Shown one piece after another: positions 19,684 through 38,379 of a DNA stretch of 64,000 nt. Where the stretch lies: assembly GCF_018398425.1 (NCBI RefSeq), contig NZ_JADPMV010000002.1:1-64000 (forward strand). The letters run 5' to 3'. Both the position numbers and the translations under genes were made by a program. Below the pieces are notes generated by a model. The model was not told where the DNA came from. It saw only the letters and a program-made list of their open reading frames with translations, and ran no database searches. How positions within the stretch are numbered: position 1 is the stretch's first letter; each line of letters begins with the position of its first letter. Source of the stretch: Pseudomonas lalucatii. Its GTDB lineage: Bacteria > Pseudomonadota > Gammaproteobacteria > Pseudomonadales > Pseudomonadaceae.

Positions 19684-20784
19684 CTAGCACGCCAATGGTC
19701 CCAGCAGCCCCTCCAGCACCAGAAGCAGTTTGAGCAGGAAAAAGCTGGAGCAGGCAGATTCGACCAGTTCCTCCCCGGGCCCGGTTCGATAGCACATGCC
19801 GCCGAATATCCCGGGCGTCGCACCCGCCGAGCTGAAATAGCGGCTGCGCAGCAACGCCGCGGTCAAGCTTTCTGCCTGCTCGCGCCAGGGCCCGGCGCCC
19901 CCGAGTAGAGACGACAGCCCCAGCATGGCAAGCGCGGCGATTGCCGCTGCCGCAGGGTCCTCGCCGGCCTCCGGGCGCTCCAGGCGATTCGCCGGCAGAG
20001 GGTCGGGGCGCGATTCGAGCCAGTAGTCGCACGCCCGGCGCGCGAGGTCCAAGTAGGGTTCGCCGTAAAGACCAGCCGCCTGCACCAGCCCCAGCATCGC
20101 CCAGGCCTGGCCTCGGGACCAGTGCCCGGCCGGCTCATGCCGGACGATGCGCCCCTGCACGTGCTGGCTGCTGCCGCAGTAGGCGCCCTGCCAGGTTCCG
20201 CAGGCGGCAAGGCTGGCCTGCAGGTGCTGACCGGCTAGCTCGCGGATATCGCACCGCGGGCTCAGCGCCAGCAGGCGCAAGGTGGGCGCCAGGGTATCGA
20301 TGGCGATCCGCCGGTCACCATCCGTCCCGCCGCCCATGGCCGTGCCCAGCGGTATCCAGCCCACCTCACGATCGAACGCCCGCGCCACGGCAGCCGCCGC
20401 CCGCTGAAGCAGCAAGTGCGCCTGTTCATCGCCGAACCACAGTGCCCCCGGTGCGGCGCCGTACCAGAAGATCATGCTGCGGTTCAGGCTCGGGCTGTCC
20501 AGCTTGGTCGCCAACCGCGGGCCGAGTTCCGCCGCCTTGGCGCGGTCGGCGGCGGCGCCGGTAACACGAGCCCGCAACCACCAGAGCCCGGCCCAGAATC
20601 CCCCCAGCCAGGAACCGCCGGCGGATACCACCCAGCGATCCGACAGCCCCGGGGAGTACAGCGGGAAACCGCCCCGACAGCTGCGTTCGACCCGCTCCAG
20701 ACGCTGCAGCAACGCATCGATGGCCCTGCGACGCTCCGCCGGACTCGAGGCGTCTGCCGGTTGTTGTTGAAGCAACTCGTTCAT
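19684..20784 (-). CDS. GH88-fold (six-hairpin) glycosidase-like protein, last gene of the biosynthetic operon
   Basis: A 366-aa protein from the ATG at 20784, which overlaps the MFS stop as ATGA. It looks like an (alpha/alpha)6-barrel of the unsaturated glucuronyl/rhamnogalacturonyl hydrolase family. The family signature WSRGQAWAMLGLVQAAG is near residue 235, a HWSRGQ neighbourhood precedes it, and an Asp in RRIAIDTLAPTLRLL matches the region of the catalytic Asp of GH88 enzymes. I cannot place the other conserved Asp with confidence. A hydrolase of this type is unusual at the end of a metallophore-like operon; it could have been recruited for a non-sugar hydration or cyclisation. Function unknown. 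Confidence 0.65.
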   Translation of the reverse strand: MNELLQQQPADASSPAERRRAIDALLQRLERVERSCRGGFPLYSPGLSDRWVVSAGGSWLGGFWAGLWWLRARVTGAAADRAKAAELGPRLATKLDSPSLNRSMIFWYGAAPGALWFGDEQAHLLLQRAAAAVARAFDREVGWIPLGTAMGGGTDGDRRIAIDTLAPTLRLLALSPRCDIRELAGQHLQASLAACGTWQGAYCGSSQHVQGRIVRHEPAGHWSRGQAWAMLGLVQAAGLYGEPYLDLARRACDYWLESRPDPLPANRLERPEAGEDPAAAAIAALAMLGLSSLLGGAGPWREQAESLTAALLRSRYFSSAGATPGIFGGMCYRTGPGEELVESACSSFFLLKLLLVLEGLLGPLAC

Positions 20785-22022
20785 TCTGCCCTCGCCGGAC
20801 TGGTAGACAGGGCGCCGGAGCCTTCGACGCTCGCCCTGGCGCGCCTTACGCCGACCAGGACCAGCGCCAGCAGGCAACCGACGACCAGCACCAGGATCAA
20901 CCCGCTCCAGGCCCCGGTGAATCCGTAGCTCGTGGCCGACAAGGCTCCGACGCTCGGCGGCCCGACCGCGAAGCCGCCGAAGAACCCCACCGACAGCAGG
21001 CCCGCCGAGGTGGCCGGGGAGCCGAAGACCCTGTCGCGCAGGAGCATGCTCATGGCGATGGCATTGGTCGCGACCGCCGTCAGGCCGACGCCAATGGTGC
21101 CCACCCAGAGCACCCAGAGGCGCTCGGGAGCGGCCTGCATGGTCACGCCGATGGCACCTGCCGCCAGGGCCAGCAACACCAACAGCAGCCAGGACTCGTC
21201 ACGCATCCGTCCGCCGAGCGGCGTCAGCAGCACCCGTGCGAGGATGCCGCTGACGCCGAACACCGCCACCAGTCCGCCGGTCAGCACCGCAGACAGGCCC
21301 TGCTGCTGGGCGAACACGCCGAGAAAGGTGATATAGGCCGAGAGGGCGATGCCTGCGCACAGCTGGATCGCCATCAGCAACGCCAACTCCCGGCTCGGCC
21401 GCGTCAAACCGAAACGCGCGGGTGGCGGCGCCGCCGCCCTGGGTGCGACCCGCGGCGCGGCCAACGCCAGCAGCAGCCCCAGCGGGACCAGCAACAACAG
21501 CGCCGCACGCCAACCGAACGCCTGGGCGACAGCCGGCAAGACCAGGCCGGCGAACAAGGCGGCGACCTGTACGCCCGCCTGCTTCAGGCCCACCACCGCA
21601 GCCTTCTGCGGTGCCGCCACCCGCTCGGCAATCAGCAAGTTAGTCGCCGGGTTGGACAGCGCCTGGGCGACGCCGCAAAGGGCCATGGCCAGCACCACCC
21701 CGACGAAGCCGGGCAGCACGCCGATCAACCCATAGGCCAGAGTCGCGGTCAGCGCCATCAGCACCAGCGAGCGGCGCGAGCCCAGCAGGTTGACCAGCGC
21801 CCCTGCCCACAGCGACAGCAACGCGGCGAAGCCGAACGCGCTCATGGTCAGGTAGCCCAGCCAGCCCGGCGCGATGCCCAGGTCGGCGACGAGGAACGGC
21901 CCGAGGGTGCCGATGGCATAGAAGATCAGCATCGGCAGCGCCATGGCGCCGGTCAGTACGCTACGCAGGCACAGCGCCTCCAGCGCGCCGGCGACAGCCT
22001 GGGGTGGTGCCTCGCGCGTCAC
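20781..22022 (-). CDS. MFS transporter, candidate exporter of the biosynthetic operon
   Basis: A 413-aa 12-TM major facilitator. It starts at a GTG that overlaps the stop of the acyl-CoA dehydrogenase gene (GTGA) and ends overlapping the GH88-like start. Inner repeats such as LWAGALVNLLGSRRSLVLMALTA (motif A-like) and the LLSVGFFGGFAVGPPSVGAL end are typical of drug/metabolite exporters. Its tight coupling to biosynthetic genes suggests export of the product. The direction of transport is inferred. Confidence 0.8.
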   Translation of the reverse strand: MTREAPPQAVAGALEALCLRSVLTGAMALPMLIFYAIGTLGPFLVADLGIAPGWLGYLTMSAFGFAALLSLWAGALVNLLGSRRSLVLMALTATLAYGLIGVLPGFVGVVLAMALCGVAQALSNPATNLLIAERVAAPQKAAVVGLKQAGVQVAALFAGLVLPAVAQAFGWRAALLLLVPLGLLLALAAPRVAPRAAAPPPARFGLTRPSRELALLMAIQLCAGIALSAYITFLGVFAQQQGLSAVLTGGLVAVFGVSGILARVLLTPLGGRMRDESWLLLVLLALAAGAIGVTMQAAPERLWVLWVGTIGVGLTAVATNAIAMSMLLRDRVFGSPATSAGLLSVGFFGGFAVGPPSVGALSATSYGFTGAWSGLILVLVVGCLLALVLVGVRRARASVEGSGALSTSPARAE

Positions 22023-23266
22023 GAGGCTTCCCCCTGCTTCGCCCCGGAGTGGGCAGTGTCGGCCCGCGTCGCGGCCAGCGTCGGCCAGTCGAAATCCAGG
22101 GTGCCGGCGCTGCGGTAGACGTCCAGCAGACGACGGCCGACCGCGCTGATCAAGGCGTCGTCGGTGCCGTCGAGGATGTGCGTGGCGCGCGCCGTCCGGT
22201 AGATGCCGGAGAGCGGCGACAGCTCGCTGAGCCCCTCGGCGCCGTAGATCTGGATCGCCGAGTCCGCCACCAGGCTGAGGGCCCGGGAGGCGGCGACCTT
22301 CGCCACATTGCCTTCTATGGCGTTGTCCACCCCGGCGTCGAACTTGCGCGCGGCGTCCTGCAGCAGACCGCGGGCGCCGGCGATGGCCTGGTATGCCTCG
22401 AAGATCCGCAGGCGCACCAGCTGCTTGTCAGCCAGCCGTGCCTGCTCGCCGCGCGCCGACACGACCCGCGCGCAGAGCTGGTCGAAGCAGCGCTGCGCCA
22501 GCCCCAGCCAGTGCGCCGCACGCAGGATGCGGCCCAGCCCGAGGCGCTCCTGCATCAGCGCCAGGCCGCCGCCGGCCTGCCCCAGGACGTTGTGCCGCGG
22601 CACCCGGACACCATCTAAGACGATCTCGCACTGGCCCTGGAAGCGGCCGAGGATGTCCAGCTCACGGGCGATGGCGAAGCCATGGGCCGCGGTGGGCACC
22701 AGGATCATCGACAACGCCCCTTCCAGAGGGCCCTCGTCGGTACGCGCCACCACGGTGACGAAACTGGCCCGGTCGGCACGACAGATGAACCACTTGCGGC
22801 CTTCCAGTCGCCACTGTTCATCCACCAGGCGGGCGCGGGTGGTCAGGGTCGCCGGAATCGAACCGATGCTCTGGGGCTCGGACATCCCGTAGGCGGACAC
22901 CGCATCCCCGCGCAGAAGCGGCGCGAGGAAGGTGGCGCGTACGTCCGGCCCGGCATGTCGCGCCAGCATGTGGGCATCCAGGGTGGCATCCGCGCCGAAG
23001 ACGGCCGGGCCGTATTCCGAGCGTCCCTCCTGCTCGGCCACCGCCAGGTAGGCCTCCAGGCTGGCCAGACGGCCCGGGTAGAAGGCCCCCCACAGCCCTT
23101 CTTGCCGGGCCAGGGCGGCCAGTTCGGCGTGGCAGGCCTGGGCGCTCGCGCGGGGGCCGGCCAGTTCACCCTCGCGGGGCAGGATGTGCGTCTCGACGAA
23201 CGCCCTGACCCGACGCGCCAGGTCACGCGCGTCCGGCTCCAGGTGGCTCGGCTGTGACTGATTCAT
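22019..23266 (-). CDS. Acyl-CoA dehydrogenase-like flavoenzyme
   Basis: A 415-aa protein from the ATG at 23266, which has GGAGG 5 nt upstream. The N-terminal helical domain is followed by AYGMSEPQSIGSIPATLTTRA (FAD-contacting middle domain) and a C-terminal helical bundle ending IYGAEGLSELSPLSGIYRTARATHILDGTDD, the usual C-terminal ACAD signature. It sits 10 bp after the AMP-ligase stop. A desaturation of an activated acyl group to the alpha,beta-enoyl form would supply the Michael acceptor needed by the PigD-like enzyme; that role is inference. Confidence 0.8.
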   Translation of the reverse strand: MNQSQPSHLEPDARDLARRVRAFVETHILPREGELAGPRASAQACHAELAALARQEGLWGAFYPGRLASLEAYLAVAEQEGRSEYGPAVFGADATLDAHMLARHAGPDVRATFLAPLLRGDAVSAYGMSEPQSIGSIPATLTTRARLVDEQWRLEGRKWFICRADRASFVTVVARTDEGPLEGALSMILVPTAAHGFAIARELDILGRFQGQCEIVLDGVRVPRHNVLGQAGGGLALMQERLGLGRILRAAHWLGLAQRCFDQLCARVVSARGEQARLADKQLVRLRIFEAYQAIAGARGLLQDAARKFDAGVDNAIEGNVAKVAASRALSLVADSAIQIYGAEGLSELSPLSGIYRTARATHILDGTDDALISAVGRRLLDVYRSAGTLDFDWPTLAATRADTAHSGAKQGEAS

Positions 23267-23276
23267 GGGCACCTCC

Positions 23277-24926
23277 TCAACAGGCGATGCCGATGCCGCG
23301 TTCGAGGAACGCGATCTCGGCGGCGAGCAGCTTCTTGTCGACCTTGCCGGCCGGGCTCAGCGGCAGTTGCCGGTAGAAGCGCAGGTACTCCGGCAACTTG
23401 TTGACCTCCAGCCCCTGGGCGCGCAGGTATTCGGTCAGCTCGCCGAGGGCGAAGCGCGGCGCGCCCTGGCGCAGCGTCACGCAGATGCATACGCGCTGCC
23501 CCAGGTCGGCGTCCGCCACGGCGACGCAGGCGGCACTGACCACGTCGGGATGGCCGGTGGCGAGCATCTCGATCTGCACCGGGCTGATGTTCACCCCACC
23601 GCGGATGATGATGTCCTTCTTGCGCCCGGCCAGCACCAGACAGCCGTCGCGGTCGATATAGCCCAGGTCACCGGTGCACACCCAGCCCTCGGCGTCGCGG
23701 TAGCGGGCATCGAGCTCCGGCGCGTTGACGTACTGCATCGGGCTCAGGGGCCCGCGCGCCTTGATCTCGCCGACCTCCCCCGGGGGCAGCTCGGCGCCCC
23801 GCTCGTCGACGATGCGGATCTCGCAGACGCTCGGGTTGGGCCTGCCGACGCTGCGCAGCACCACCTCGAGCGAGTCGTCGAGGGTGTTGTGGCAGTTCAC
23901 CCCGTCGGCCGAGCCGTACAGGCTGATGAAGCCACAACCGAAGGCTTCGACGCAGCGCCGCACGCTGGCCTCGTCGATCAGCGAGCCGCCGCTGATCAGG
24001 CCCAGCAGGCTGGACTTGTCGACGTCTGCCAAGCGCGGTTCGGCGGCGATGCGCTGGAGCATGGTCGGCACCCCGAGGATATGGGTGGGCCGCAGGGTCT
24101 CGATGGCCTGGATCGCCGCCGTCACGTCGAACTTCGGCAGCACCACGATGGAGCCACCCAGCCAGGACAGGCAGCCGAAAGTGGCCGAGGAGCCGAACGA
24201 GGACCCCAGGGGCACCAGGTACATGCCGCGGAAGCTCTCGCCCTGCGCATGCAGGCGCTGCAGGAAACGCCCGCGCCCGCCGACCAGGGCGTTGTGCGAA
24301 TAAGCCACCAGCTTGGGCTCCGACTCGGTGCCGGAGGACACCAGCAGGCGCACCGGCGAGTTGGGGCAGACCTGCGGCAGCGCCTCGAACCCCAGGGGCT
24401 CGGCCTGCAGCAACTGCTCCAGGGACTCCCAGCCACGCTGCGCCGCACCCTCGACTATCGGCACGCGCAGCGACAACAGGGTCGGACGCAGTGAATCGAC
24501 CAGTTCGCACAGGTCGATGCCGCCGAACTCGGCCGGCACTATCACCGCCCGGGCGTCGCAACGGCGCAGCAGGGACTCGATGTCGAGGCGCCCACGTCCC
24601 GGCGGGAAAGGCGCGACCACCGCGCCCAGGGCGGCGGCCGCCAGGTCGATGGCGCAGCAGCGCCAGCTGTTGGTGAGCTGATAGGCGACCACATCGCCGG
24701 GCACTATGCCCCGCGCCCGCAGGCTCGCAGCCAGGCGCAGGGCCTGCTCGAGCAACTCGCCATAGGCGATGCTGCCTTCCGGCGAGAGTACCGCGAGCCT
24801 GTCGGGGGAGTGCTCGGCATGCTGCCGGAACAGCTGGAACACCGACTTGTTCGGATAGAGCCCATCGCGCGCCCACGCGCGGCGAACGGACTGGGGAACC
24901 AGATCGATAATGCCTGAGTTGTTCAT
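23277..24926 (-). CDS. AMP-dependent acyl/aryl-CoA synthetase (AMP ligase)
   Basis: A 549-aa adenylate-forming enzyme from the ATG at 24926, overlapping the CaiB-like stop. Conserved cores are visible: LLVSSGTESEPKLVAYSHNA (phosphate loop, a variant of the usual TSGTTGxPK), GFISLYGSADG (A5), GWVCTGDLGYIDRDGCLVLAGRKKDIIIRGG (A7/A8), and the C-terminal GKVDKKLLAAE with the catalytic Lys. Comparable AMP ligases (PdtJ, QbsL) activate the carboxylate that receives sulfur in PDTC and thioquinolobactin synthesis. The substrate is not known here. Confidence 0.88.
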   Translation of the reverse strand: MNNSGIIDLVPQSVRRAWARDGLYPNKSVFQLFRQHAEHSPDRLAVLSPEGSIAYGELLEQALRLAASLRARGIVPGDVVAYQLTNSWRCCAIDLAAAALGAVVAPFPPGRGRLDIESLLRRCDARAVIVPAEFGGIDLCELVDSLRPTLLSLRVPIVEGAAQRGWESLEQLLQAEPLGFEALPQVCPNSPVRLLVSSGTESEPKLVAYSHNALVGGRGRFLQRLHAQGESFRGMYLVPLGSSFGSSATFGCLSWLGGSIVVLPKFDVTAAIQAIETLRPTHILGVPTMLQRIAAEPRLADVDKSSLLGLISGGSLIDEASVRRCVEAFGCGFISLYGSADGVNCHNTLDDSLEVVLRSVGRPNPSVCEIRIVDERGAELPPGEVGEIKARGPLSPMQYVNAPELDARYRDAEGWVCTGDLGYIDRDGCLVLAGRKKDIIIRGGVNISPVQIEMLATGHPDVVSAACVAVADADLGQRVCICVTLRQGAPRFALGELTEYLRAQGLEVNKLPEYLRFYRQLPLSPAGKVDKKLLAAEIAFLERGIGIAC

Positions 24927-26782
24927 GTGAAACTCCAGGGAGACGTGACCAGGGTGTAGGTATCCGTACGCAAACACGGCTTAATCCGCCCGTCTTCATG
25001 CAACGCCGACAGGTCTTCTCGAACCGCGGAAGCGGCCAGGCCGAACTCCCGCAAGAGTTCTTGCCAGGCCAGGGCATCGCGGGCCGCCAGGCAACGGCGG
25101 AGCTGCTCGTCACGCAAGGCCGGCTCGGCCGCCAGCTGGCAGTCCAGGGCGCCGGCCAGGCGCTGCAGGTCCACCGCCTCGTGGCACTCGAGCGCCAGCT
25201 GTCCCCGGGCGGTGGGATAGACGCCGGCGAGCAGCGGCTGGGCCGGCGCGTTGCCGGCGCGCAGGGCCTGCAACTCGCCATGGCACAGCAGGGTCGCGGC
25301 GCCGAGCAGCGAGCTGTCGACCCGCCCCGCCTCGCCATCCAGCGCACGCTTGAGCAGGGCTGCACTGACGCCCTGGGCCGCGACCACGCCGCCCAGCACG
25401 TCCAGCACGGTGAACAGCGAACCGCCGACGCCCGCCGAGGCCCGGGCGCTCCGTTGCGCCACCCCCGAATAGGCCTGCACCATGAAGTCGGTGCCCGGCA
25501 TCCGCTGCAGGCGCTGGTCATCGCCCCAGCCGCCCGCGTAGGCGTAGACCAGCGCCGGGTTGACCCGCGCCAGGTCGTCCGCGTCCAGCCCCAGTTCGGC
25601 CGCCTTGCCGGGCGCCCAGTTGTGCAGGAACACCTCGGCCTGGCTGGCCATTTCCAGCAGCTCGGCGCGGCCCCGCGGCGATTTGATATCCACTTCGCGC
25701 ACCCGCTTGTGACGGTTGAGCGCGTCGAAGCGCACCGAGCAACCGTCCGCCAGCGGCGGCATGCCGCGCAGCGGATCGCCGCCGGGCAGCTCGATACGCA
25801 CCACCTCGGCGCCGAGCAGCGCCAGCAGGTGGCCGGCCAGCGGGCCCTGGATGCGCCGGCACGACTCGATGACGGTGACCCGGTGCAACGGCAACGCCCC
25901 CCGGGCAACGGCGGGAAGCGGCGCCGCCGCTGCCCGGCCCGGCCCGAACGCCCAGGGTCCCCGCTCCAGCAGGGGCGGCAGGTCATCGTCGGCCAGCCGC
26001 TCGGCCAGGCTGCGCAGCGGGCAGATGGCCACCCCACTGTCCCGGCAGCGCTCGGCGATCCACCCATAGGGCTGGCGCGCCAGGGCCTCCATCAGCTCTG
26101 CCGGCAACGGCGAAATCGCCTTGGCGTAACGCATGAGGAACGCGCTCCAGCCCTTGCCGGCCAGTTCGTCCGGCACCCCCAGGGACGTCCAGAAACGCCG
26201 CCAGGGCCCGGCATCCAGGGTCTCCAGCTCGAACACCACACCGTCGGCGGAGGTGAACGGCGGCCGCTGACGTGGCGAACTGCAGCCCGGCAACAAGCGT
26301 TCGGCGCCTTCCGGGGCGGTGGCACCGGCCAGGTACTGGCCGACGCCCAATGCCGCGGCGGCGGCCAGGGACAGCTCGACCCGCGTCTGCCCGGCGCCGC
26401 GCAACTGGCCAACGGCGGCGGCGAAGACGCCCTGCATGGCCAGGCAGGCGGCCAGGGTCGAGACGTAGTCCAGGCCCAGGGGACGCGCCCCGCCACTGGC
26501 GCGGCCATGCACGGCCATCAGGCCCGAGGCGGCCTGTACCGTCAGTTCGCTGGCGCCGTGGCTGCAGCCGTCGGCCCAGCCGCAGAGGCTGGCGGCGATA
26601 GGTGCGAGCCCCGGGACCTCGAAATGAAAATCTAGCCCCGAGGCGCCGCTCCCCGTGGCGGGGCCGAGTTCTATGCCCAGGGCCCGGGCTTGACTGAGAA
26701 CGGCGGTAGCCACGGGGGCGAAGGCCGGTGGGACATGGGCAAAGGCGCCGGCAAGGGTGCATCCGGCCAGGGGAATGGACAT
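24923..26782 (-). CDS. CaiB/BaiF-like CoA-transferase, tandem-domain form
   Basis: A 619-aa protein, about 1.5 times the usual family III length. The C-terminal half (from about residue 290) is a recognisable CaiB domain: VTVIESCRRIQGPLAGHLLALLGAEVVRIE, GGDPLRGMPP, HNWAPGKAAELGLD, and the catalytic-Asp neighbourhood MPGTDFMVQAYSGVAQRS. The N-terminal half looks like a second, degenerate copy (SGLMAVHGRASGGARPLGLDYVSTLAA). No strong ribosome-binding site is seen before 26782. A CaiB-like gene sits at the same place, after the sulfur-carrier gene, in my recollection of the pdt cluster. It probably moves the activated acyl group between carriers. Confidence 0.8.
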   Translation of the reverse strand: MSIPLAGCTLAGAFAHVPPAFAPVATAVLSQARALGIELGPATGSGASGLDFHFEVPGLAPIAASLCGWADGCSHGASELTVQAASGLMAVHGRASGGARPLGLDYVSTLAACLAMQGVFAAAVGQLRGAGQTRVELSLAAAAALGVGQYLAGATAPEGAERLLPGCSSPRQRPPFTSADGVVFELETLDAGPWRRFWTSLGVPDELAGKGWSAFLMRYAKAISPLPAELMEALARQPYGWIAERCRDSGVAICPLRSLAERLADDDLPPLLERGPWAFGPGRAAAAPLPAVARGALPLHRVTVIESCRRIQGPLAGHLLALLGAEVVRIELPGGDPLRGMPPLADGCSVRFDALNRHKRVREVDIKSPRGRAELLEMASQAEVFLHNWAPGKAAELGLDADDLARVNPALVYAYAGGWGDDQRLQRMPGTDFMVQAYSGVAQRSARASAGVGGSLFTVLDVLGGVVAAQGVSAALLKRALDGEAGRVDSSLLGAATLLCHGELQALRAGNAPAQPLLAGVYPTARGQLALECHEAVDLQRLAGALDCQLAAEPALRDEQLRRCLAARDALAWQELLREFGLAASAVREDLSALHEDGRIKPCLRTDTYTLVTSPWSFT

Positions 26783-26873
26783 AGGGTTGAACGCCGCGAT
26801 CGATCCATGAAAACCCGCGCGCCAGCGCTTCGAGGCTGGCGGCGCGGACGCGAAATGCCGGAAAGCCCGGAAC
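26783..26873. other. Short gap in the operon
   Basis: About 90 bp between the sulfur-carrier stop and the CaiB-like start. No gene, no clear promoter and no terminator are seen. Confidence 0.5.
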
Positions 26874-29032: not shown

Positions 29033-31552
29033 TCACTCGAGAAATGTCGACATGTCCCGGCAGACCGCGGCGAAGGCATCGACGAAGGCGCGAGCCTGAT
29101 CCTCGTCGAGCAGCAAGGGTGGCTGGATGCGCATGACCCGGTTGTTGTTGGCCGTGACGAAGGTGAGGATGCGGTGCTCCTCGGAGAGTTTGGTGACGAA
29201 GCGCAGCACGAACATCTCCTCGAAGTTCTTCTCCAGCTCGTCGACCGCCTCGCGGAGCAACTGCTTGGCCTTGCCGGACATCATCCGGTAGCTGGCCATG
29301 GCGTTGCCCGGTATGCGGCTGGCGAACTCGCGCACGAAAGCCTCCACGCCGCCGGCGAAGCTGCTGTGGAACTCGATGGCGATCATCAGGCCGCGCCCGC
29401 GCACCTCGCGGATGAAGGGATAGTCCGCCACCGCCTCGCGCAAGGCCTGCTGCAACAGCCCGCCGACCCGCTGCGCATTGCCGGCCAGGTCCTCGCTCTC
29501 GATGACGTCCAGCGTGGCCAGGGCCGATGCGGCCGCCAGGTTGCCGCCGCCGAAGGTCGAGGTGTGCAGGGCGAAGCTGTCGATGCTGCCGTAGGCGCGG
29601 TCCCACAGGTCCGCCCGCGAGAGCGTGGCGCCGATGGGCACCGCCCCGCCGGAGAGGGATTTGGACAGCACCAGGATGTCCGGCGCCACGCCCTCCCATT
29701 CACAGGCGAAGAGCTTGCCGGTGCGTCCCAGTCCGGTCTGGATCTCGTCCAGGATAAGGATGCAGTCATGCTCGCTGCACAGCTCGCGGACCCGCGCCAG
29801 GTAACCCGGCGGCGGCAGCAGCACGCCGCCTTCGCCCTGGATGGGTTCGAGGATGAAGGCGCCCACGTCGCCCTGCAGCAGGGCCTGCTCCAGCGCCTCG
29901 ATATCGCCGAAGGGAATCGAGTCGCAGCGCGGCAACAGCGGCTTGAACGGCTGCCGGTGCTTGTCGCGGCCGGTGACGGACAACGCGCCGAGGGTCTTGC
30001 CGTGGTAGCCGTTGTCGCAGTAGAGCAGCCGCGAGGCCCAGCTGCGATCCATGGCGGCGATCGCCAGCTTCAACGCCGCCTCCACCGCCTCGGTGCCCGA
30101 GTTGCTGAAGAACACCCGTCCCAGGTTGCCCGGCGCCAGCTCGCTCAGGCGCTGGGCCAGCAGGCTGGTCTGCAGCGGCACGGAGACGTACTGGACGAAA
30201 GTCGGCTGCTCCTGCTGCAGGTAGCGCTGCAGCGCGGCATTGATCCGCGGGTGGTTGTGCCCGGTGTTCAGGCAGCCGTACCCGGCGACGAAATCCAGGT
30301 AGCGGCTGCCGTCCAGATCGGTCAGCCAGCAGCCACTGCCATGGCCGAACACCCGCTCGATGTGGTTGAAGGCGTAGAACTCGCGGAGGATCGGATTGAT
30401 GTGCTCGCCGAAGCAGCGCAGGGCCTCGGCGCGCAGCTGTGGGCCCTCGAGCGGGACCGGAGGCTGGCCGGGCCTCTGGTGAAAACGCCGCAGCCCCTGG
30501 AAATCCGCCGCGCCCAGGCGCTCGCCGTAGGAGGCCATGGGTGTCGGCAGCAGGCCGTGGCCCTCGGCCAGGCGGCCGATCTCCAGCACCTTGTCCTCCG
30601 GCAGTTCGCGACCGATGGAGAAGGCTTCCGCGCGCCCTTCCAGGCCCAGCACCAGGGTTTCCGCCAGGCAGCCATTGAGGAATTTCTTCGGCGCCATGCC
30701 CAGGCTCTCCCCGCCGAAACGCAGCGTGGAGCCGGCCGAGACCAGCCCGCCGTCGATGATCAGGATGTCGTTGCGGTCGCGCCGGTAGGGCATCACGTCC
30801 CGCGGCAGCGCGGCGTCGACCACCACCGAGCCGGGCGCCAGTCGATAGGGGTCGATGACCCCGCCGCTGGAAGTGGCGGCGACGAAGAAGCGCACGCCGG
30901 CGTAGCAGCTCTGTATGTCGTTGCTCAGGCGTACCCGCCCGCGCAGCTCCGCCGGCAGGTAGTCGAGGCCCTGGCGGGCCTGCTCTTCGCCGCCCCGGTG
31001 GATCAGGCACAGGCGGCAGCCCTCGCGGCCGAGCAGCCTGGCGATCGCCAGGGCGATGGAGCCGGGGTAGCCGACCACCGCGACCTCGGTGTCGAGCGGG
31101 TCCACCTCCAGCTGCCGCATGGCCTCCAGCACGTTGCGGTAGGCCGCGTAGGCGGTCAGCGAATTGCCGGTGGTCACCGGAACCCCGGTACGCTCCAGGG
31201 TCTGCAGGCCGCGGTTACCGACTATCGCGGTGAAACCGCCGAGGCCGACCAGCTGGGCGCCCTGCTCCTTGAGGCTGTCCACGCCCTCGATCACGCGCCG
31301 GGCGATGGCACGCGGCTGGGCGAGCATCTCCTCGGCGGTCAGCGGCAGGTAATGGACGATGCCTTCGCAGACCGCGCCACGGGCGCTGACGATGCGCCCG
31401 AAGTCGGCGAAGGGCACCAGGTTGCGCCGCTGCCACAGATCGGGGTGGTAACCGCGGTCCTGTTCGGCGAGGTTGCGCTCGAACAGGTCGAGGATCTTCA
31501 CGTGACGCTTGAGTGCCACCGAGGTCGGGTGCGCGATGAATCCGAATTTCAT
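29033..31552 (-). CDS. PigE-like fusion: thioester reductase + class III aminotransferase
   Basis: An 839-aa two-domain enzyme. Residues about 1-360 resemble acyl-thioester/acyl-ACP reductases of the cyanobacterial AAR type: FGFIAHPTS at the start, QLVGLGGFTAIVGN, VPVTTGNSLTAYAAYR and the nucleotide motif VAVVGYPGSIALAIARLLG. Residues about 400-839 are a class III PLP aminotransferase: DFVAGYGCLNTGHNHPRI, ILDEIQTGLGRTGKLFA and the PLP Lys631 in LSKSLSGGAVPIG. The same domain order occurs in PigE of prodigiosin synthesis, which reduces an acyl thioester to the aldehyde and transaminates the later acetyl-aldehyde. It starts 25 bp after the PigD-like stop. Specificity cannot be read from the sequence. 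Confidence 0.82.
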   Translation of the reverse strand: MKFGFIAHPTSVALKRHVKILDLFERNLAEQDRGYHPDLWQRRNLVPFADFGRIVSARGAVCEGIVHYLPLTAEEMLAQPRAIARRVIEGVDSLKEQGAQLVGLGGFTAIVGNRGLQTLERTGVPVTTGNSLTAYAAYRNVLEAMRQLEVDPLDTEVAVVGYPGSIALAIARLLGREGCRLCLIHRGGEEQARQGLDYLPAELRGRVRLSNDIQSCYAGVRFFVAATSSGGVIDPYRLAPGSVVVDAALPRDVMPYRRDRNDILIIDGGLVSAGSTLRFGGESLGMAPKKFLNGCLAETLVLGLEGRAEAFSIGRELPEDKVLEIGRLAEGHGLLPTPMASYGERLGAADFQGLRRFHQRPGQPPVPLEGPQLRAEALRCFGEHINPILREFYAFNHIERVFGHGSGCWLTDLDGSRYLDFVAGYGCLNTGHNHPRINAALQRYLQQEQPTFVQYVSVPLQTSLLAQRLSELAPGNLGRVFFSNSGTEAVEAALKLAIAAMDRSWASRLLYCDNGYHGKTLGALSVTGRDKHRQPFKPLLPRCDSIPFGDIEALEQALLQGDVGAFILEPIQGEGGVLLPPPGYLARVRELCSEHDCILILDEIQTGLGRTGKLFACEWEGVAPDILVLSKSLSGGAVPIGATLSRADLWDRAYGSIDSFALHTSTFGGGNLAAASALATLDVIESEDLAGNAQRVGGLLQQALREAVADYPFIREVRGRGLMIAIEFHSSFAGGVEAFVREFASRIPGNAMASYRMMSGKAKQLLREAVDELEKNFEEMFVLRFVTKLSEEHRILTFVTANNNRVMRIQPPLLLDEDQARAFVDAFAAVCRDMSTFLE

Positions 31553-31577
31553 GGTTCGAGAGTCCTTGTGGCCAGCT

Positions 31578-33992
31578 TCACTGGCGGTTCCAGGCGGTTT
31601 CGGAGACCAGGCTGAGGCCGTCTCCGTCGGAGTTGTGGGCCAGCATCACGTCGATGATGTTGAGCTGCCCGGGGCTGCTCAGGGCGCTGCGCAGGCCGTC
31701 GGCGTCGAACTGCAGCATCCGCCTGCGGCACAGGCTGATCGCCCCTGCCCGCTCGACGGCCGGCGCCGGCGCCGGCGCGGTCACCGCCACCTGGCGCGCG
31801 CCGTTGTGCGCGTAGCGCTTGTCCAGATAGGTCTGGATCATCGACAGCACGCCGTTGCTCAGATAGAACAGCGTGACATTCTTCGCCGCGCCGCGCGGGT
31901 CCTGGGCCAGGCCGGCCAGCAGGCGGGCCTCGATGTCCGGCACCAGCGCCCGCGCGCCGTCGCCGACGAAGGCCAGCACGTTATCCGCGGCACTGCAGGC
32001 GATATACGGCAATGCCATCAGAGCGTCGCCCATCAGCGCCCGGCCGTACCAGCCGGAGAAGCCCGGGCCGGTGCGCGGTACGTTGCGCAGCGCGGAGATG
32101 CCACAGCGACCGACGTCGTAGATGCCGGTATAGCGATAACCGTCGTCCTCGATCAGCTCGCGCACCAGACTGCCCAGGCGCAGGAAGAAGTAGTTGGCGG
32201 TCATCGGCACGGTGGCGATGTGATCCACCGGCACCGCTTCGCTGATCGCAGTTACGGCGGCCAGCCTGGCCCGGCGTAGCGCCAGCACCTCGGGCGCCAC
32301 CGCCAGCCTGGCCTGGACCTGGTCGAGGAACAGGTCCAGCGGCATGTCCAGCGCCAGGTCGGTGAAGGGCGACCGGTGGCGGGGCTCGTGGTTGACCTGC
32401 ACCACGCGTACCTGACGTTTCAGCTTGCCCTCGGAGAACGGCGTGGCGGCCTGGTCCACCTTGCTCTTGAGGAAGAACAGGCACATCGCGTCCGGCCCGA
32501 CGACTTCATGCCGCTCGTGCAGGAAGCGGTAGACGCGCCGACTGAAGCCGTACAGCGACAGCGGCCCCAGGTAGTTCGGCACCGCCTGGCCCTGGTGATA
32601 GGGGCCGACGCTGCCCGGCTGGGTGATGCTGTCGGCCAGGGCGATGCCGGCCGCCGCGGCGATCCGGTAGACCCGCTCGCGCTGTGCCTCCGACAGCCTG
32701 CCGCATTGCCAGAGCATGTGCAGCGGCGCCTGGTTGATCAGGCGCAGCGCCTCGTCGAGCGCCGCCTGCTGCACCTCGCTCAGGCGCTGCGGCGCCGGCG
32801 CGGCGGGCGACGGCAGGCCGACGTCCAGGGGCTGCTGCGGGCGCGACTCCAGCACCGCCTGGGTGGCCAGCACGAACACCGGCTCGGCGCGCTCGGCGAG
32901 CAGGGCGAAGGCCTCCGCCAGCTTGGCCGCCACCTCGTCCACCTTGCGGATGAACACGTGGCCCAGGCCGCGTGCGGCGATCACCTGGCGGCCATCGTGG
33001 TCGGCGTCCAGGGTGCCCTGGAAGGCGAACCAGGCGTTGTCCGGGCTGTCCGCGCAGATGATCAGCCCCGGGGCGCCGGCACGCTTGAGGTTGGCCAGGG
33101 TGCCGCGGAACTCGTCGATCATCCCGGAGGTGACCGCGATCACATAGGCGCGGCCGTAGAGCTGCCAGCCGGCCAGGGCGGCGACCGCCAGGCTGTGCTC
33201 GTTGCAGCCGTGCAGGCAGCGAACGCCGCTGCCGGCCACGCGCTGCTGCATGGACTGGATCAGCCCGGCCACCATGGAGCCGGTGTAGGAATGGAAGTCC
33301 CAGTGGTCCGGCCAGCGTTCGCCCATGAAGCGTGCCACCTCGGTGGCGATGCTCACTGGCGGCAAGGCCGTGCTGATCGAGCGGGCCAGCATGCGGTTGA
33401 AGTGGCCGTGCTCCAGGTGGTCCACGGCGATCCGCAGCAGGTCGGCACGCCCGGCCGCGCGGTCCTCCGGCGGGACACGCAGGTGACGGTTGCCACCGGC
33501 CCGCGTCATCCAGCCCGGTAGCGCCGCAGCGGAGCAGTAGAGCAGCGCCGAATGGGGCGACAGGCGGGGGCCATGGCCCCCGCGACCACAGGCGGCGAAC
33601 AGCGCCTCGAACGGGTCATCCCCCGCCTCCGGCAGCGCGCTGGCGTCGACGATGAACAGCTCCACCTGCGGGCCGGCGGTGTGGCGCGGCAACTGCGCCA
33701 GCGCCACCTCCGGCGTGGGGAAATGCAGCAGCTCCACCGACAGCTCCTGACGGTTGGCCGCAGTGCTCGCCTGCAGATAGTCCTCGGCCTGGACCATCAA
33801 CGTTTCCAGCACCGCCTCGCTACGCGGCTGCCCGCCCAGCGCCCGACACATTTCCGCCACGCACTCGGCGGCGCTCCAGGGCTCGCCCGCTGCTACGGCC
33901 AGCCCCCTCTGCAGCTGCTCGACGACGAAGGCCACGTCCTCGAACAGCCATTGCGCCTGTGTGATCAGGCATATCCCCAGCACTCCCTTCAT
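31578..33992 (-). CDS. PigD-like ThDP-dependent enzyme
   Basis: An 804-aa protein of the ThDP-dependent decarboxylase/carboligase superfamily. The mid-part has FHSYTGSMVAGLIQSMQQ and CLHGCNEHSLAVAALAGWQ, where the Glu would activate ThDP, followed by SGMIDEFRGTLANLKRAGAPGLI. The C-terminal half has the ThDP/Mg motif GDG at 677-679 with Asn residues at about 705 and 713. An unusual N-terminal extension of about 200 residues precedes the core. The overall plan matches PigD, which adds the acetyl unit of pyruvate to an enal by decarboxylative 1,4-addition. It lies directly before the PigE-like gene, reproducing the pigD-pigE pairing. GAGGA precedes the ATG at 33992. Confidence 0.75.
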   Translation of the reverse strand: MKGVLGICLITQAQWLFEDVAFVVEQLQRGLAVAAGEPWSAAECVAEMCRALGGQPRSEAVLETLMVQAEDYLQASTAANRQELSVELLHFPTPEVALAQLPRHTAGPQVELFIVDASALPEAGDDPFEALFAACGRGGHGPRLSPHSALLYCSAAALPGWMTRAGGNRHLRVPPEDRAAGRADLLRIAVDHLEHGHFNRMLARSISTALPPVSIATEVARFMGERWPDHWDFHSYTGSMVAGLIQSMQQRVAGSGVRCLHGCNEHSLAVAALAGWQLYGRAYVIAVTSGMIDEFRGTLANLKRAGAPGLIICADSPDNAWFAFQGTLDADHDGRQVIAARGLGHVFIRKVDEVAAKLAEAFALLAERAEPVFVLATQAVLESRPQQPLDVGLPSPAAPAPQRLSEVQQAALDEALRLINQAPLHMLWQCGRLSEAQRERVYRIAAAAGIALADSITQPGSVGPYHQGQAVPNYLGPLSLYGFSRRVYRFLHERHEVVGPDAMCLFFLKSKVDQAATPFSEGKLKRQVRVVQVNHEPRHRSPFTDLALDMPLDLFLDQVQARLAVAPEVLALRRARLAAVTAISEAVPVDHIATVPMTANYFFLRLGSLVRELIEDDGYRYTGIYDVGRCGISALRNVPRTGPGFSGWYGRALMGDALMALPYIACSAADNVLAFVGDGARALVPDIEARLLAGLAQDPRGAAKNVTLFYLSNGVLSMIQTYLDKRYAHNGARQVAVTAPAPAPAVERAGAISLCRRRMLQFDADGLRSALSSPGQLNIIDVMLAHNSDGDGLSLVSETAWNRQ

Positions 33993-34085
33993 GGATCCAT
34001 CCTCTGCACAGGTTTCTCAATTGCCGCGGGTGTCGCCCGCGACTCCCTTTGCGCGCCTGTACAGCGTCACGCGCATCATGCTCCT

Positions 34086-35351
34086 TCAAGGGCAGCGCCC
34101 GTCCGCCTCCATGGCGCCCAGCCGCCCCCCCTCCTGTTCCGTCACCTGTGCCAGGGTCCGCCGACTGCCCAGGGCCAGGCCGGCCACGCCGAGCATGGCC
34201 AGCGTCAAGCCGAGCAGCATGCCGGTGTAGCCCAGGCGATCCAGGGCCACCCCGGCGAGCACGGGCACCGCCAGGCGCGAAACCACGAACAGGCTGGCCT
34301 GCAGGCCGTAGTCGGCGGCCTGGCGCTGCTGCCGGGTGAAAAACATCATCAGGCCGAAGACCAGCGCGGAGATGGCCCCCATGGCCGCCGCGATCAACGC
34401 CGCGCCGACGACCAAGCCGAACGCACCCGCATCCAGCCAGACCGCCGTGGTCAGGCCGGCCAGGGCGAGCAAGGCGAAACCGGTGAACAACGGCATCGCC
34501 CGCGCGGCGCCGATGACGCGAATCAACCGGGCGCTCGCCACGCTGGCCAGGGCACCGACCACCCCGCCGCCCACCCCGGCCAGCCAGGCCACCCGCTCCG
34601 CCGACATGCCCTGGTCCAGCAGCAGGGGCTTGAGGTACAGCCAACAGGCGCCGACAAAGGGGAAGCTGAGCAGCAGCAGGAAGGTCCACAGGCGCGCGCC
34701 CGGCTGCTCGAAATAGCCGCGCCAGCCATCCCCGGGCGCAGTCCCCGGGGATGCTGCAGGCGGCGCCAGCGCCGCCTCGCCGAGCAGCGGCAGCAGCGCG
34801 GCGCCGAGCAGCAACGCCGCCGCCATCAGCAGGAACGGCGCCTGCCAGCCCCAGCGTGCGTGCACCAGCAGCATCAGCCCGCCACCGGCGATGGCCGCGA
34901 GGAACAGCGCCGCCGAGCGTATCGCTCCGGCGCGCATGCGCTCGCTTTCCGGCAGCAGCTTGATCGCCAGGGCGTTCACCGGAATGTCCGCCCAGGTCGC
35001 CAGGACACCGGCACACAGCGCCAGGAGGAACAGCAGCCCACGGCTGCCGAGCAGCTCCTGACGCCCGATCAGGACCAGGGTCGCCGCCAGCGACAGGCAC
35101 AGCAGCACTGCCCAGCCCCGGTAGTGGCCGCCGGCAAAGCGCCAGCGCTCGACCGGCAGCGCCAGGAGGAACTTGAACAGCGCCGGCAGCCCGGCCAGCT
35201 GGAACAGGCCGATGTCGGTGCCCGACCAGCCGTGCTGGCGCATCACCAGCGGCAAGCCCAGCAGCAGATAGATGCTCGGCAGCGCCAGGGCGAAGTTCAG
35301 CCAGCCGAACAGCGCCTGGCGCCCCAGCAGGCGGGTCGCGGCGCGGCTCAT
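34086..35351 (-). CDS. MFS permease of the AmpG/RhtX/FptX-like siderophore type
   Basis: A 421-aa 12-TM protein from the ATG at 35351, overlapping the methyltransferase stop as ATGA; the longer frame upstream is not needed. The start (LFGWLNFALALPSIYLLLGLPLVMRQHGWSGTDIGLFQ) and the GLPALFKFLLALPVER loop resemble single-unit siderophore permeases. Its place directly after the TonB receptor and methyltransferase suggests inner-membrane uptake of the metal complex, the FptX/PdtE role. An exporter role is possible. Confidence 0.72.
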   Translation of the reverse strand: MSRAATRLLGRQALFGWLNFALALPSIYLLLGLPLVMRQHGWSGTDIGLFQLAGLPALFKFLLALPVERWRFAGGHYRGWAVLLCLSLAATLVLIGRQELLGSRGLLFLLALCAGVLATWADIPVNALAIKLLPESERMRAGAIRSAALFLAAIAGGGLMLLVHARWGWQAPFLLMAAALLLGAALLPLLGEAALAPPAASPGTAPGDGWRGYFEQPGARLWTFLLLLSFPFVGACWLYLKPLLLDQGMSAERVAWLAGVGGGVVGALASVASARLIRVIGAARAMPLFTGFALLALAGLTTAVWLDAGAFGLVVGAALIAAAMGAISALVFGLMMFFTRQQRQAADYGLQASLFVVSRLAVPVLAGVALDRLGYTGMLLGLTLAMLGVAGLALGSRRTLAQVTEQEGGRLGAMEADGRCP

Positions 35352-36400
35352 GGCACGCTCCGGCGGCCGATCACGGCGGTGACCGGGGTCATGGGGAACG
35401 GAACCTCGCGAACCGTTTCCAACCCGCCGAAGCCGGCCCGCGCCAGGGCCTGGTACAGCTCGCCCGCGCGCGTCACATGGCGCCCGAGCATGCGCATCGA
35501 CAGGTAGTAGGGCAGCATTGCCAACGCCGCATCCGGGCTGTGCGGGATCTCCGCCTGGGCGCAAACCAGCACCCCGCCCGGCCGCAGTGCGGCGAGCATC
35601 CGGCACAGGGCGACGTGGGGATCGGCCACGAAATGCAGCACCGAGGAGCACCAGATCAGGTCGTAGCCTTCACCCAGGGCGTCGCGGGACAGGTCGCCTC
35701 CCCGGCTCCGCAGGCGCCCGGCCAACCCCGCCCGTGCGATGTTCTCCTGGGCCACGCTGGCGGCCTCCGGCAGATCGAACACCTCGCCACCGAGCACGGG
35801 GTTGGCCTCGGCCAGGGCGATGGCGACCAGGCCGGGACCGCCGCCCAGGTCTAGCAGGCGCTCGGCAGCGGCGAATTCGGGCAGGCGGCTCACCAGCGCC
35901 AGTGCCGCCGCGGCTGTGACGGCGCGCTGCTCCTGGGCGATCTGCAGGCGCGCCGCCGCCTGCCAGTTGGCTCCGGTCCCGGCGAGATGGGGTGCGATGC
36001 TGGCCCGGCCGCTGCGCACCTGCTCACCCAGCTGGTCGCCGAAATGGCGCAGCGCCTGGGTACGGAACAGCCAGGCATCGCCACAATAATCAGGGGACAC
36101 GCGACTCAGGTACTGCCCCGCGACCGCCCCGGTGCCATAGCGCCACTGGCACGGCGTTGCATCCACGCCCCGGCGCTCCAGCAGGCGCATGCTCCAGAGC
36201 AGCTCCAGCAGCTGCGCGGTATTCGCCGGGTGCAGTTGCAGACGCGCGGCCGTCTCGGCCGCCGTCAGCGGCTCGACGAGCCGCTCGAACAGCTGCAGCT
36301 CCAGGGCCACGCGCAGGGCATCGGCCTGTACCGCCGCCAGGGAGACCTCCCAGTAAGGTTGCAGGGGGTGGCGGGCCTCAGCGGGCAGATGGCGGCTCAT
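35348..36400 (-). CDS. SAM-dependent methyltransferase (O-methyltransferase family)
   Basis: A 350-aa enzyme with an N-terminal dimerisation/winged-helix domain (LELQLFERLVEPLTAAETAARLQLHPANTAQLLELLWSM). A Rossmann core follows with motif I LLDLGGGPGLVAIALAEANP at about residue 175 and SVLHFVADPHVALCRMLAALRPGGVLVCAQ (motifs IV/V). It overlaps both the TonB gene upstream and the MFS gene downstream by 4 bp. It probably methylates an O, N or S atom of the product; acceptor not predictable. Confidence 0.85.
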   Translation of the reverse strand: MSRHLPAEARHPLQPYWEVSLAAVQADALRVALELQLFERLVEPLTAAETAARLQLHPANTAQLLELLWSMRLLERRGVDATPCQWRYGTGAVAGQYLSRVSPDYCGDAWLFRTQALRHFGDQLGEQVRSGRASIAPHLAGTGANWQAAARLQIAQEQRAVTAAAALALVSRLPEFAAAERLLDLGGGPGLVAIALAEANPVLGGEVFDLPEAASVAQENIARAGLAGRLRSRGGDLSRDALGEGYDLIWCSSVLHFVADPHVALCRMLAALRPGGVLVCAQAEIPHSPDAALAMLPYYLSMRMLGRHVTRAGELYQALARAGFGGLETVREVPFPMTPVTAVIGRRSVP

Positions 36401-38379
36401 AACTGGTAGCTCAGGCGCAGGCCCAGTTCACGGGGCTCGCTGTACACCCGGGCCATGCCATTGAGGAAGCCGACCGCGTCGTAGCGCTTGTCCGTGGCGT
36501 TGTCGAGGTACAGGGTGATGCCGTAGTGCGCGTACTGGTAGCCGGCACGCAGGTCGAGCAGGGTGTAGCCGCCTCGGCTGAAACGGTTGGCGGAATCCAG
36601 ATAGGTGCGCCCCACCCCGCTCAGGCCGGCCTGGGCGTACCAGCCGGCTGGGGCGTCGTAGCGCAGGCCGAGGTGACCGTTCAGATCCGGGGCGAAGGGG
36701 TTGTGATTGCCCCGGTGATCGGCATTGCGGTCACGGAAGCGCTCGAAGCGGGTGCGATTGATCCCCAGTGCGCCCTGTAGCCGCCAATCGTCTCCCAGCA
36801 GGTACTCGGCCTCCAGCTCCAGGCCGGTGGAGCGAGCCTCGGCGGCGTTGCTGATGGAAACGGCGCCCGGCACGACGATCTGCTGGACCTGCATGTCGTC
36901 GATATCCATCCAGTAGAGCGCGGCGGCGTAGCGCAGGCGGTGTTGCGCGCCCCAGCCCTTGAGACCGACTTCATAGGCGCGCACCTGCTCCGGGCCGTAG
37001 CCGGGAAAGTCCGCCGCGGCGGCGAAGGCGTTGAAGCCCCCGGCGCGAAAACCTTCGGCGTAACTGGCGTAGAGCTGGGCGTCCGGCGACCACTGGTACT
37101 GCAGCGCCAGCTTGGGGCTGAGACGTTGCCAGGCGTCGCTCTTGCGTGTGCCGCTGCGGGCCGACAGCTTGACCCTGTTCCGTTCCATGCGCGCCCCCAG
37201 GCTCAGCGACCAGCGCGTGGACAGCGGCAGCGTCCAGTGGCCGAACAGCGCGGTGGAGTTGCCGCCCAGGTCCACCCGGGTGCGGCTCTGGCCCATGGGT
37301 GAGTGCTGACGGAAATCCAGGTCGTGGTCGTCGCGATCCGCGTAGAAACCCAAGAGCCATTGGCCGCTGCCGGTCTCGCCCTCCAGGCGCAGTTCCTGGG
37401 ACAGGTTGCTCAGGTGATGGTCACGCTCCACCCGCAGCAGGTCGGCGGGCAGAAAATCGCTGTCCTGGCGGACCCGGTCATGGAAGTCGTTGCCCGCGGT
37501 GATCGAGCGCAGCCTCAGGCCGTCGCCCAGTTCCTGGGCGAGATCCAGCGCCAGCGTACGCCCGCTGGAGCGATTCCAGTTCGACGTCCCGGAGCGCACC
37601 TCGCGCCGGGAGGAGTTCACGCCCCCCCACTGCGAACCGCCGTCCCGGTAGTCCTGGCGGCTGTAGCGCAGGGTGGCGCTGCTGCGCGCCGAGGGCGTCC
37701 AGCGCAACACCGCGCGGCCGTTGCGCCGCGCGCGGTCGTCCTCGCGGCCGCCGCGCTGGCGGTTGTCGATGAAGCCGTCCTGCTCCAGCCACTCGCCGGC
37801 GATGCCGGCATACAGGCTGTCCGCCACCAGCGCCTGGCTGAGGTCGAAGCGCAGCGAACGCCTGTCGCGACTCCCCAGGCTGGCATCGACCAGGGCATAG
37901 GGACTGTCGCCGGGCTGGCGCGTATGGAGACTCAACACCCCGGTCTCGGCATTGCGCCCGTACAGCGTCGCTTGCGGCCCACGCAGGACCTCCACCCGCT
38001 CGACACCCAGCAGGTTGCTGTCGAACCCCTGACCCATGAGGGTCGGGACACCATCGACCAGCATCAGCATCGAAGAGGAGAAGGCGGTGGCGCTGGAGGT
38101 CAGCCCCCGCATCACCGGGAGATTGGTGCCCGACTGGCCGAACGGCTGGAAGGCGAAGCTCGGCGTTCGCCGTGCCAGACCTTGCAGGTCTTCCACGGCC
38201 GCGGCGCGCAGATCGTCGCCATAGAACACCGAGAGACTGCCCGGCACCTGCTCCTGTCGTTGCTCGTGCTTGTTGGCCGTCACCGTGACGGACGGCAGGA
38301 CCTGCTCGGCCCTGGCCGCAACCGCCAGAATGTGGGCGATTACCAGCACTCCGGCGCCCGATAAAGCATGCTTAGCCAT
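36397..38379 (-). CDS. TonB-dependent outer-membrane receptor
   Basis: A 660-aa receptor with an N-terminal signal peptide cleaved near AARA-EQ. A short TonB-box-like stretch (SVTVTANKHE) is followed by the plug domain (VPGSLSVFYGDDLRAAAVEDLQGLARRTPSF...GVERVEVLRGPQATLYGRNAETGVLSL) and a 22-strand barrel ending YSEPRELGLRLSYQL with the terminal aromatic-type signature. It heads the operon, 174 bp from the divergent AraC gene. Most likely it imports the metal-loaded form of the product made by the downstream genes. Confidence 0.92.
   Translation of the reverse strand: MAKHALSGAGVLVIAHILAVAARAEQVLPSVTVTANKHEQRQEQVPGSLSVFYGDDLRAAAVEDLQGLARRTPSFAFQPFGQSGTNLPVMRGLTSSATAFSSSMLMLVDGVPTLMGQGFDSNLLGVERVEVLRGPQATLYGRNAETGVLSLHTRQPGDSPYALVDASLGSRDRRSLRFDLSQALVADSLYAGIAGEWLEQDGFIDNRQRGGREDDRARRNGRAVLRWTPSARSSATLRYSRQDYRDGGSQWGGVNSSRREVRSGTSNWNRSSGRTLALDLAQELGDGLRLRSITAGNDFHDRVRQDSDFLPADLLRVERDHHLSNLSQELRLEGETGSGQWLLGFYADRDDHDLDFRQHSPMGQSRTRVDLGGNSTALFGHWTLPLSTRWSLSLGARMERNRVKLSARSGTRKSDAWQRLSPKLALQYQWSPDAQLYASYAEGFRAGGFNAFAAAADFPGYGPEQVRAYEVGLKGWGAQHRLRYAAALYWMDIDDMQVQQIVVPGAVSISNAAEARSTGLELEAEYLLGDDWRLQGALGINRTRFERFRDRNADHRGNHNPFAPDLNGHLGLRYDAPAGWYAQAGLSGVGRTYLDSANRFSRGGYTLLDLRAGYQYAHYGITLYLDNATDKRYDAVGFLNGMARVYSEPRELGLRLSYQL

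Follow-up and report, generated by a model that had tools for sequence, protein, structure and literature searches.

Introduction

Gene clusters for pyridine-2,6-bis(thiocarboxylate) (PDTC) share a core of PdtF (E1 plus rhodanese domains), PdtG (JAB), PdtH (ThiS/MoaD), PdtI (CaiB) and PdtJ (AMP ligase) (PMC1779556, Table 1, row 4a), and in Pseudomonas kilonensis F113 the pdt genes lie in the order pdtCKPELMFGHIJON (14 loci, PSF113_2605-2618; PMC3570484, PMC7415375). We analyzed a 64,000-nucleotide stretch of Pseudomonas lalucatii DNA (contig NZ_JADPMV010000002.1, positions 1 to 64,000; hereafter the window) that carries an operon, running from 38379 to 19684 on the minus strand, which by its genes is a pdt-type cluster, a known kind whose order fits the published letters. 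We think it likely that a locus of this type makes two products, PDTC from its sulfur half and long-chain pyrrolines from the genes L and M.

The same sulfur-transfer set is present in the thioquinolobactin (qbs) cluster (PMC1779556), whose carrier is capped and is trimmed by the JAMM protease QbsD (PMC6006322). The thioplatensimycin cassette (PtmA3/PtmU4) likewise combines an AMP ligase with a two-domain CoA-transferase, 28% and 36% identical to pdt OrfJ and OrfI, but serves another scaffold and has its sulfur-carrier genes outside the cluster (PMC6006322). L and M have their described counterparts in the 2-methyl-3-n-amyl-pyrrole (MAP) branch of prodigiosin biosynthesis (PigD, PigE, PigB), where the evidence points to PigE reducing a thioester and then aminating the aldehyde (PMC8341465), and where the product of PigD and PigE, 5-methyl-4-pentyl-3,4-dihydro-2H-pyrrole, accumulates on deletion of pigB (PMC7065143). 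Reports of alkyl- and alkenyl-dihydropyrroles from Pseudomonas date back to 1986. Among open-licence PubMed Central papers we found none linking PDTC genes with PigD/PigE or pyrrolines, and none assigning genes to the Pseudomonas alkyl-dihydropyrroles.

Results and Discussion

The operon and its identity

The operon consists of 13 open genes with zero internal stops, and with the starts chosen here five junctions (K/MT, MT/MFSa, I/J, ACD/MFSb and MFSb/GH) overlap by 4 bp. The starts of MFSa, F, H, J and GH were placed inside the longest open reading frames (ORFs), which corrects the ORF list. Third-position GC was 0.84-0.92 in 12 of the 13 genes and 0.80 in the last (GH), supporting coding. 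Because M and F are separated by 179 bp, a single transcript is not established; a consensus scan of this gap found no promoter. Letters such as K, L and M follow pdt usage as far as could be judged. The features are as follows (MFS, major facilitator superfamily; ThDP, thiamine diphosphate).

38554 to 39516, plus strand: divergent AraC-family regulator, PdtC-like (C); Pfam HTH_18; divergent beside K in 16 further loci
38380 to 38553, no strand: C-K intergenic region; alignment of 17 sequences and motif scores
36397 to 38379, minus strand: TonB-dependent receptor, PdtK-like (K); Pfam; close relatives in many Pseudomonas
35348 to 36400, minus strand: O/S-methyltransferase (MT); Pfam Methyltransf_2; overlaps K by 4 bp
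34086 to 35351, minus strand: MFS transporter (MFSa), probably PdtE; Pfam MFS_1; start set at 35351
31578 to 33992, minus strand: ThDP-dependent PigD-like enzyme, PdtL-type (L); NCBIfam PigD 681 bits; PdtorfL-named homolog; fold model
29033 to 31552, minus strand: PigE-like fusion, PdtM-type (M), of an N-terminal acyl-thioester reductase and a C-terminal class-III aminotransferase; NCBIfam PigE; PDB 4ppm
27681 to 28853, minus strand: E1-like adenylyltransferase with rhodanese domain, MoeZ type (F); Pfam ThiF and Rhodanese
27201 to 27635, minus strand: JAMM/JAB metalloprotease (G); Pfam Prok-JAB
26874 to 27146, minus strand: ThiS/MoaD-like sulfur carrier with an uncapped Gly-Gly end (H); Pfam ThiS; tail comparison; start set at 27146
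24923 to 26782, minus strand: CaiB-like type III CoA-transferase (I); Pfam CoA_transf_3, two stretches
23277 to 24926, minus strand: AMP-dependent carboxylate ligase (J); Pfam AMP-binding; overlaps I by 4 bp
22019 to 23272, minus strand: acyl-CoA-dehydrogenase-like flavoenzyme (ACD); Pfam
20781 to 22022, minus strand: second MFS transporter (MFSb); Pfam MFS_1
19684 to 20784, minus strand: GH88-like protein (GH); PDB 2ahf, unsaturated glucuronyl hydrolase, E 6e-12; start set at 20784

An initial annotation, made from the sequence alone, had described a same-strand operon of 13 genes with 4-bp overlaps, headed by a TonB receptor with a divergent AraC regulator, and the ORFs and Pfam matches confirm this layout. 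They also support its view that the operon is of metallophore type and contains a pdt/qbs-like sulfur module (MoeZ, JAMM, MoaD, CaiB and AMP ligase). The Pfam search of the 13 genes gave no match for L and GH. F scored 606 bits against NCBIfam MoeZ (cut-off 647), and MFSa matched the RhtX/FptX siderophore transporter model TIGR02718 weakly (67.9 bits, below the cut-off of 356).

The window holds the whole F-G-H-I-J core of a pdt cluster. Its 14 genes, namely AraC, receptor, one gene, MFS, L, M, F to J and three more, fit the F113 order, which is tied to protein types for F to J by the published table and for L by one database name, and elsewhere by letters. The letters C, K and E were matched to protein types by general pdt usage, and M, N, O and P could not be tied to sequences. 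The database name is that of a Xenorhabdus homolog of L (P0081) deposited as PdtorfL; among 120 listed of 311 matches to the receptor K, with some names incomplete, none was deposited as PdtK. The genes of Stutzerimonas kirkiae (L025) run MT, MFSa, F, G, H, I, J, K, L, M, ACD, MFSb, GH, so that the letters E to M would be alphabetical if MFSa is PdtE, as might be expected of the cluster that was lettered first. The window order recurs, within the DNA fetched, in L001-L011 (L002 from Bisbaumannia, the others from Pseudomonas), L045, L108 and L109, except that L001 (P. indica) has an extra methyltransferase-domain gene on the other strand between M and F (15106-16032); in L019 the M-F gap is similar in size to that of L001. 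The operon thus shares with the pdt clusters of F113 and P. stutzeri KC the AraC regulator, TonB receptor, MFS transporter, F-J core and L-M pair. The initial annotation had offered a pdt-type cluster as its alternative, and gene content, the fit to F113 and the PdtorfL name bear that alternative out. Its remark that the system was not recognized as described is right in one respect, that we found no product assigned to L and M in the literature searched, and wrong in the other, since the cluster type was already described.

A qbs-type identity was considered and rejected on the tail of the carrier: the window's H ends in bare GG. The tail of QbsE is GGCF. Bare GG ends 47 of 50 carrier rows (these rows, like those used for M residues below, include some genomes fetched twice), and a JAMM gene is kept alongside regardless. 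One congener with a pdt-type cluster (G073) has a second sulfur cassette (L107, 2760-18033) with a carrier tail of GGCF, a receptor, methyltransferase matches and I-J; by its tail this cassette appears to be thioquinolobactin-like.

L and M as relatives of PigD and PigE

The PigD/PigE-like pair named in the initial annotation is supported by NCBIfam matches, with M scoring 1411 bits against PigE (cut-off 850). M also matches the PigE structure PDB 4ppm over residues 1-839, and its N-terminal part matches a cyanobacterial reductase of acyl-acyl carrier protein (acyl-ACP reductase, AAR; 6jzq), with Cys295 aligned to Cys294 of the latter; the equivalent residues in the literature are PigE Cys296 and AAR Cys294 (PMC8341465). 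Cys295 and Lys631, presumably the lysine that binds pyridoxal phosphate (PLP), are each retained in 77 of 78 aligned M sequences. A PDB sequence search with L returned no relative at E up to 10, but a structure model (mean pLDDT 78) matched acetohydroxyacid synthases and other ThDP enzymes in Foldseek, which suggests that L is a ThDP enzyme of acetohydroxyacid-synthase fold. All 19 sequences compared, PigD relatives among them, share E265 and GDG 677-679 of L, taken here to be ThDP residues.

As relatives of PigD and PigE, L and M share the reductase Cys and the aminotransferase Lys with the prodigiosin MAP branch, yet the locus differs from it in several respects. In a quick tree the window L lies outside the PigD clade, and ACD scores only 83 bits against the PigA model (cut-off 500). 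PigB and PigC had no match in the window, PigB had none in the organism's own genome at E 1e-5, and none of the 16 congeners with L had a convincing one (one 52-residue match, E 1e-5, in G331). A PigB-like gene was recorded for 21 of 110 sequences, all prodigiosin-type by label, and neither the window nor any pdt-labelled locus is among the 21. A prodigiosin-type cluster was therefore rejected, and as PigB was not found, the product of L and M should stop at the dihydropyrrole.

Of 98 confirmed relatives of L, 80 were kept. In the quick tree L012 and L029 carry "no sulfur" labels only because their contigs end. Distant relatives of L were found in 6 of 72,556 plasmid records, none above 43% identity and one annotated as PigD. 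Two Photorhabdus loci (L032, L044) have L and, on the opposite strand, an aminotransferase matching M at only 27-28%; no sulfur genes were seen in the DNA fetched there. The window L shares 68-71% identity with L of most Pseudomonas pdt-type loci in its larger clade and falls in a different subclade. This divergence would leave room for a pyrroline of other chain length, or one further changed (e.g., acylated), to which the F113 compounds discussed below would be mere relatives, and an acetyl derivative (m/z 280) is in fact reported from F113 (PMC7911646). However, gene order and active-site residues are the same as in those Pseudomonas loci, and of all the readings weighed here we give this one the least credence.

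Inheritance of the two halves, together and apart

Among 398 congeneric genomes (E 1e-60), I was found in 17, L in 17, both in 16 and one without the other in 2 (Fisher p 2e-26, relatedness uncorrected), and M was present in 16 of the 17 genomes bearing I. Across 30 loci, the distances computed pairwise for L, M, F, I and J are correlated at r 0.93-0.98; the set comprises the loci in which all five genes reach sufficient length, with duplicates dropped. L027, whose L was read across a frame break and gave a spuriously long branch in that tree, was excluded. Both results, and the position of L and M within the pdt gene order, would suit PDTC as the sole product, with L and M building or modifying the pyridine dicarboxylate skeleton and no pyrroline made. 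Yet PigD/PigE chemistry yields a 1,4-dicarbonyl and a methyl-bearing five-membered ring, from which, reasoning from PMC8341465 and PMC7065143, we see no route to pyridine-2,6-dicarboxylate; alkyl-dihydropyrroles are on record in both F113 and DSM 3601 (PMC7415375); and in eight loci L-M occurs with no sulfur gene in the DNA fetched. Restriction to PDTC is in our judgment improbable.

The eight loci (L104, L016, L021, L023, L024, L026, L028 and L031) are of three kinds. The single-contig genome G132 (L104) has L-M and no I, with no other cluster gene in the 19.9 kb fetched. Five Pectobacteriaceae loci (L016, L021, L023, L024 and L026), nested among pdt-type L in the quick tree, likewise have L-M with no other cluster gene in the fetched DNA. 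In Mitsuaria (L028) and Pelomonas (L031) a fatty-acid desaturase follows L-M, which suits a fatty substrate; L028 also has a divergent TonB receptor gene. Conversely, the draft genome G076 (650 contigs, 93% complete; L106, L110) has C-F-G-H-I-J-ACD-MFSb and no L or M in the genome, and GH, MT and MFSa were not found in its fetched 23 kb. Its carrier ends in GGAR, a capped tail, and a divergent TonB receptor gene adjoins the cassette, which possibly makes a different thiocarboxylate product.

The halves also stay together across gene orders and distant taxa: in Streptomyces caatingaensis (L071) and Micromonospora echinofusca (L076) I-J-ACD lies near L-M. PDTC itself has been reported from a marine Streptomyces (PMC7374359). 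GH was found only in loci with both halves and not in G076, but none was seen in L076; loci span at most 10 kb on each side of L, which places GH outside most Pseudomonas loci. One explanation of such co-inheritance is a two-part metallophore, in which a protonated long-chain pyrroline would pair with, or be joined to, anionic metal-PDTC and carry it through membranes. It would account for L and M traveling with the sulfur genes in distant bacteria, and if true the fatty partner of a metallophore would be made by prodigiosin-type enzymes, but we hold it to be unlikely.

Co-inheritance and the distribution of GH would suit a single hybrid product, the thiocarboxylate- or thio-containing pyrroline ligand for metals that the initial annotation had predicted, joined from both halves. 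Set against this are the genomes in which the halves are found apart, and the F113 literature: there the PDTC derivatives are reported apart from the alkyl-dihydropyrroles, as distinct compounds, with no conjugate mentioned in the available portions of PMC7911646 and PMC7415375. The claim of a single ligand is thus unsupported and the hybrid very unlikely, while the part of the same proposal that had the ThDP enzyme and the fusion protein building an acetyl-aldehyde and then a pyrroline agrees with the PigD/PigE assignment.

Compounds reported from F113 and DSM 3601

Among four strains compared, pdt genes are listed for F113 only, and three 5-methyl-4-alk(en)yl-dihydropyrroles with C11:0, C13:1 and C15:1 chains came from F113 only (PMC7415375). 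The same dihydropyrroles had been isolated earlier from P. putida DSM 3601 (PMC7415375), which, by a title in a reference list, is the strain of a PDTC zinc study. Wheat root extract raised both PDTC derivatives and dihydropyrroles in F113 (PMC7911646).

Computed masses of 238.25, 264.27, 280.26, 228.01 and 198.02 match the reported m/z values of 238, 264, 280, 228 and 198. The signal at 228 is consistent with PDTC bis-S-methyl ester and that at 198 with a mono-methyl monothio form, and such methyl forms would suit the methyltransferase gene MT. The three chains equal C14:0, C16:1 and C18:1 minus three carbons, comparable to the conversion of an octenoyl to a pentyl group in PigD chemistry.

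A proposed two-product model

The model that we favor joins what was observed, i.e., homology, active-site residues, fold, absence of PigB and the distribution of the modules, to substrates, chain length and products that we infer for this organism. On the sulfur side, the rhodanese and E1 domains of F would load sulfur onto the Gly-Gly end of H, while J and I would activate a pyridine-2,6-dicarboxylate precursor; sulfur transfer would give PDTC or its S-methyl esters, with MT as the methylating enzyme, and K with MFSa would bring the metal complex back in. The ring precursor presumably comes from the lysine pathway of the host, and ACD may aromatize it. On the other side, L would transfer acetyl from pyruvate onto the beta position of a long-chain 2-enoyl thioester, M would reduce the thioester to the aldehyde via Cys295 and aminate it with PLP, and the amino ketone would close to a 5-methyl-4-alk(en)yl-3,4-dihydro-2H-pyrrole. 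If this is true, a second product is added to a siderophore locus already known, and its two "extra" genes acquire a function; the chemistry of PigD and PigE reaches beyond the C8 enoyl unit of prodigiosin to chains as long as those of ordinary membrane fatty acids; and genomes annotated as PDTC producers are worth checking for pyrrolines, which F113 makes in larger amounts in biofilm and with plant root extracts (PMC7415375, PMC7911646).

Several observations weigh against two separate products. L misses the NCBIfam PigD cut-off (681 bits against 950) and is for that reason named PigD-like and not PigD. The strain comparison is a small one, in which F113 differs from the other three strains in much else, and the three dihydropyrroles were reported within a set of eight lipophilic nitrogen compounds; three others in that set (25, 26 and 29) came from all four strains (PMC7415375). 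Dihydropyrrole levels were 13.7- to 44.6-fold higher in biofilm, with no significant change in PDTC derivatives (PMC7415375). That F113, KC and DSM 3601 carry L and M of this type is deduced from the lettering of genes, a single database name and loci related to them, and the products proposed for P. lalucatii are read from its genes. In G132, L-M is preceded on its own strand by genes for a PLP decarboxylase and a hydroxylase of biopterin type, and other enzymes may therefore work with L-M in that genome. G076 makes an imperfect control, since with a capped carrier and missing genes its product may not be PDTC. In four loci (L018, L022, L030 and L034) the dehydrogenase after M resembles PigA more than it does the ACD of the window. 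Finally, the co-inheritance of L and M with the sulfur genes could equally mean one joint product.

Placement of ACD

The initial annotation had suggested ACD as the supplier of the enoyl group. ACD adjoins J in the window as well as in many Pseudomonas loci and in L071 and L076. G076, which lacks L and M, retains ACD, and none was found next to L-M in the fetched DNA of the eight loci free of sulfur genes; this speaks weakly against that role. In its favor, ACD comes immediately after M in S. kirkiae, and in L018, L022, L030 and L034, which run F-G-H-I-J-MFSb-GH-L-M, the gene after M encodes a PigA-like dehydrogenase sharing 28-31% identity with Serratia PigA. At the catalytic position ACD has Asp in 27 of 27 aligned sequences, including the window's, where the acyl-CoA dehydrogenase family usually has Glu. 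We lean, without certainty, toward placing ACD on the PDTC side.

Regulatory region and flanking DNA

The C-K intergenic region is partly conserved across the 17 aligned sequences and resembles a Fur box in some relatives. For the window's own region the best Fur-box score was reached by 45% of 500 shuffles, and no site is claimed.

GC content is about 70% over the cluster (19684-39516) and 54-61% in much of the DNA on either side, and by this contrast the cluster looks acquired; no integrase was present among the window genes scanned. A DUF6627 protein is encoded at 19159-19653, immediately past the end of the operon. A second GC-rich stretch, at 49402-63843, contains genes for a thiolase, a CoA-transferase, a catechol dioxygenase and a muconolactone isomerase and a muconate-cycloisomerase-like gene, and is by this predicted content an aromatic degradation region of beta-ketoadipate type.

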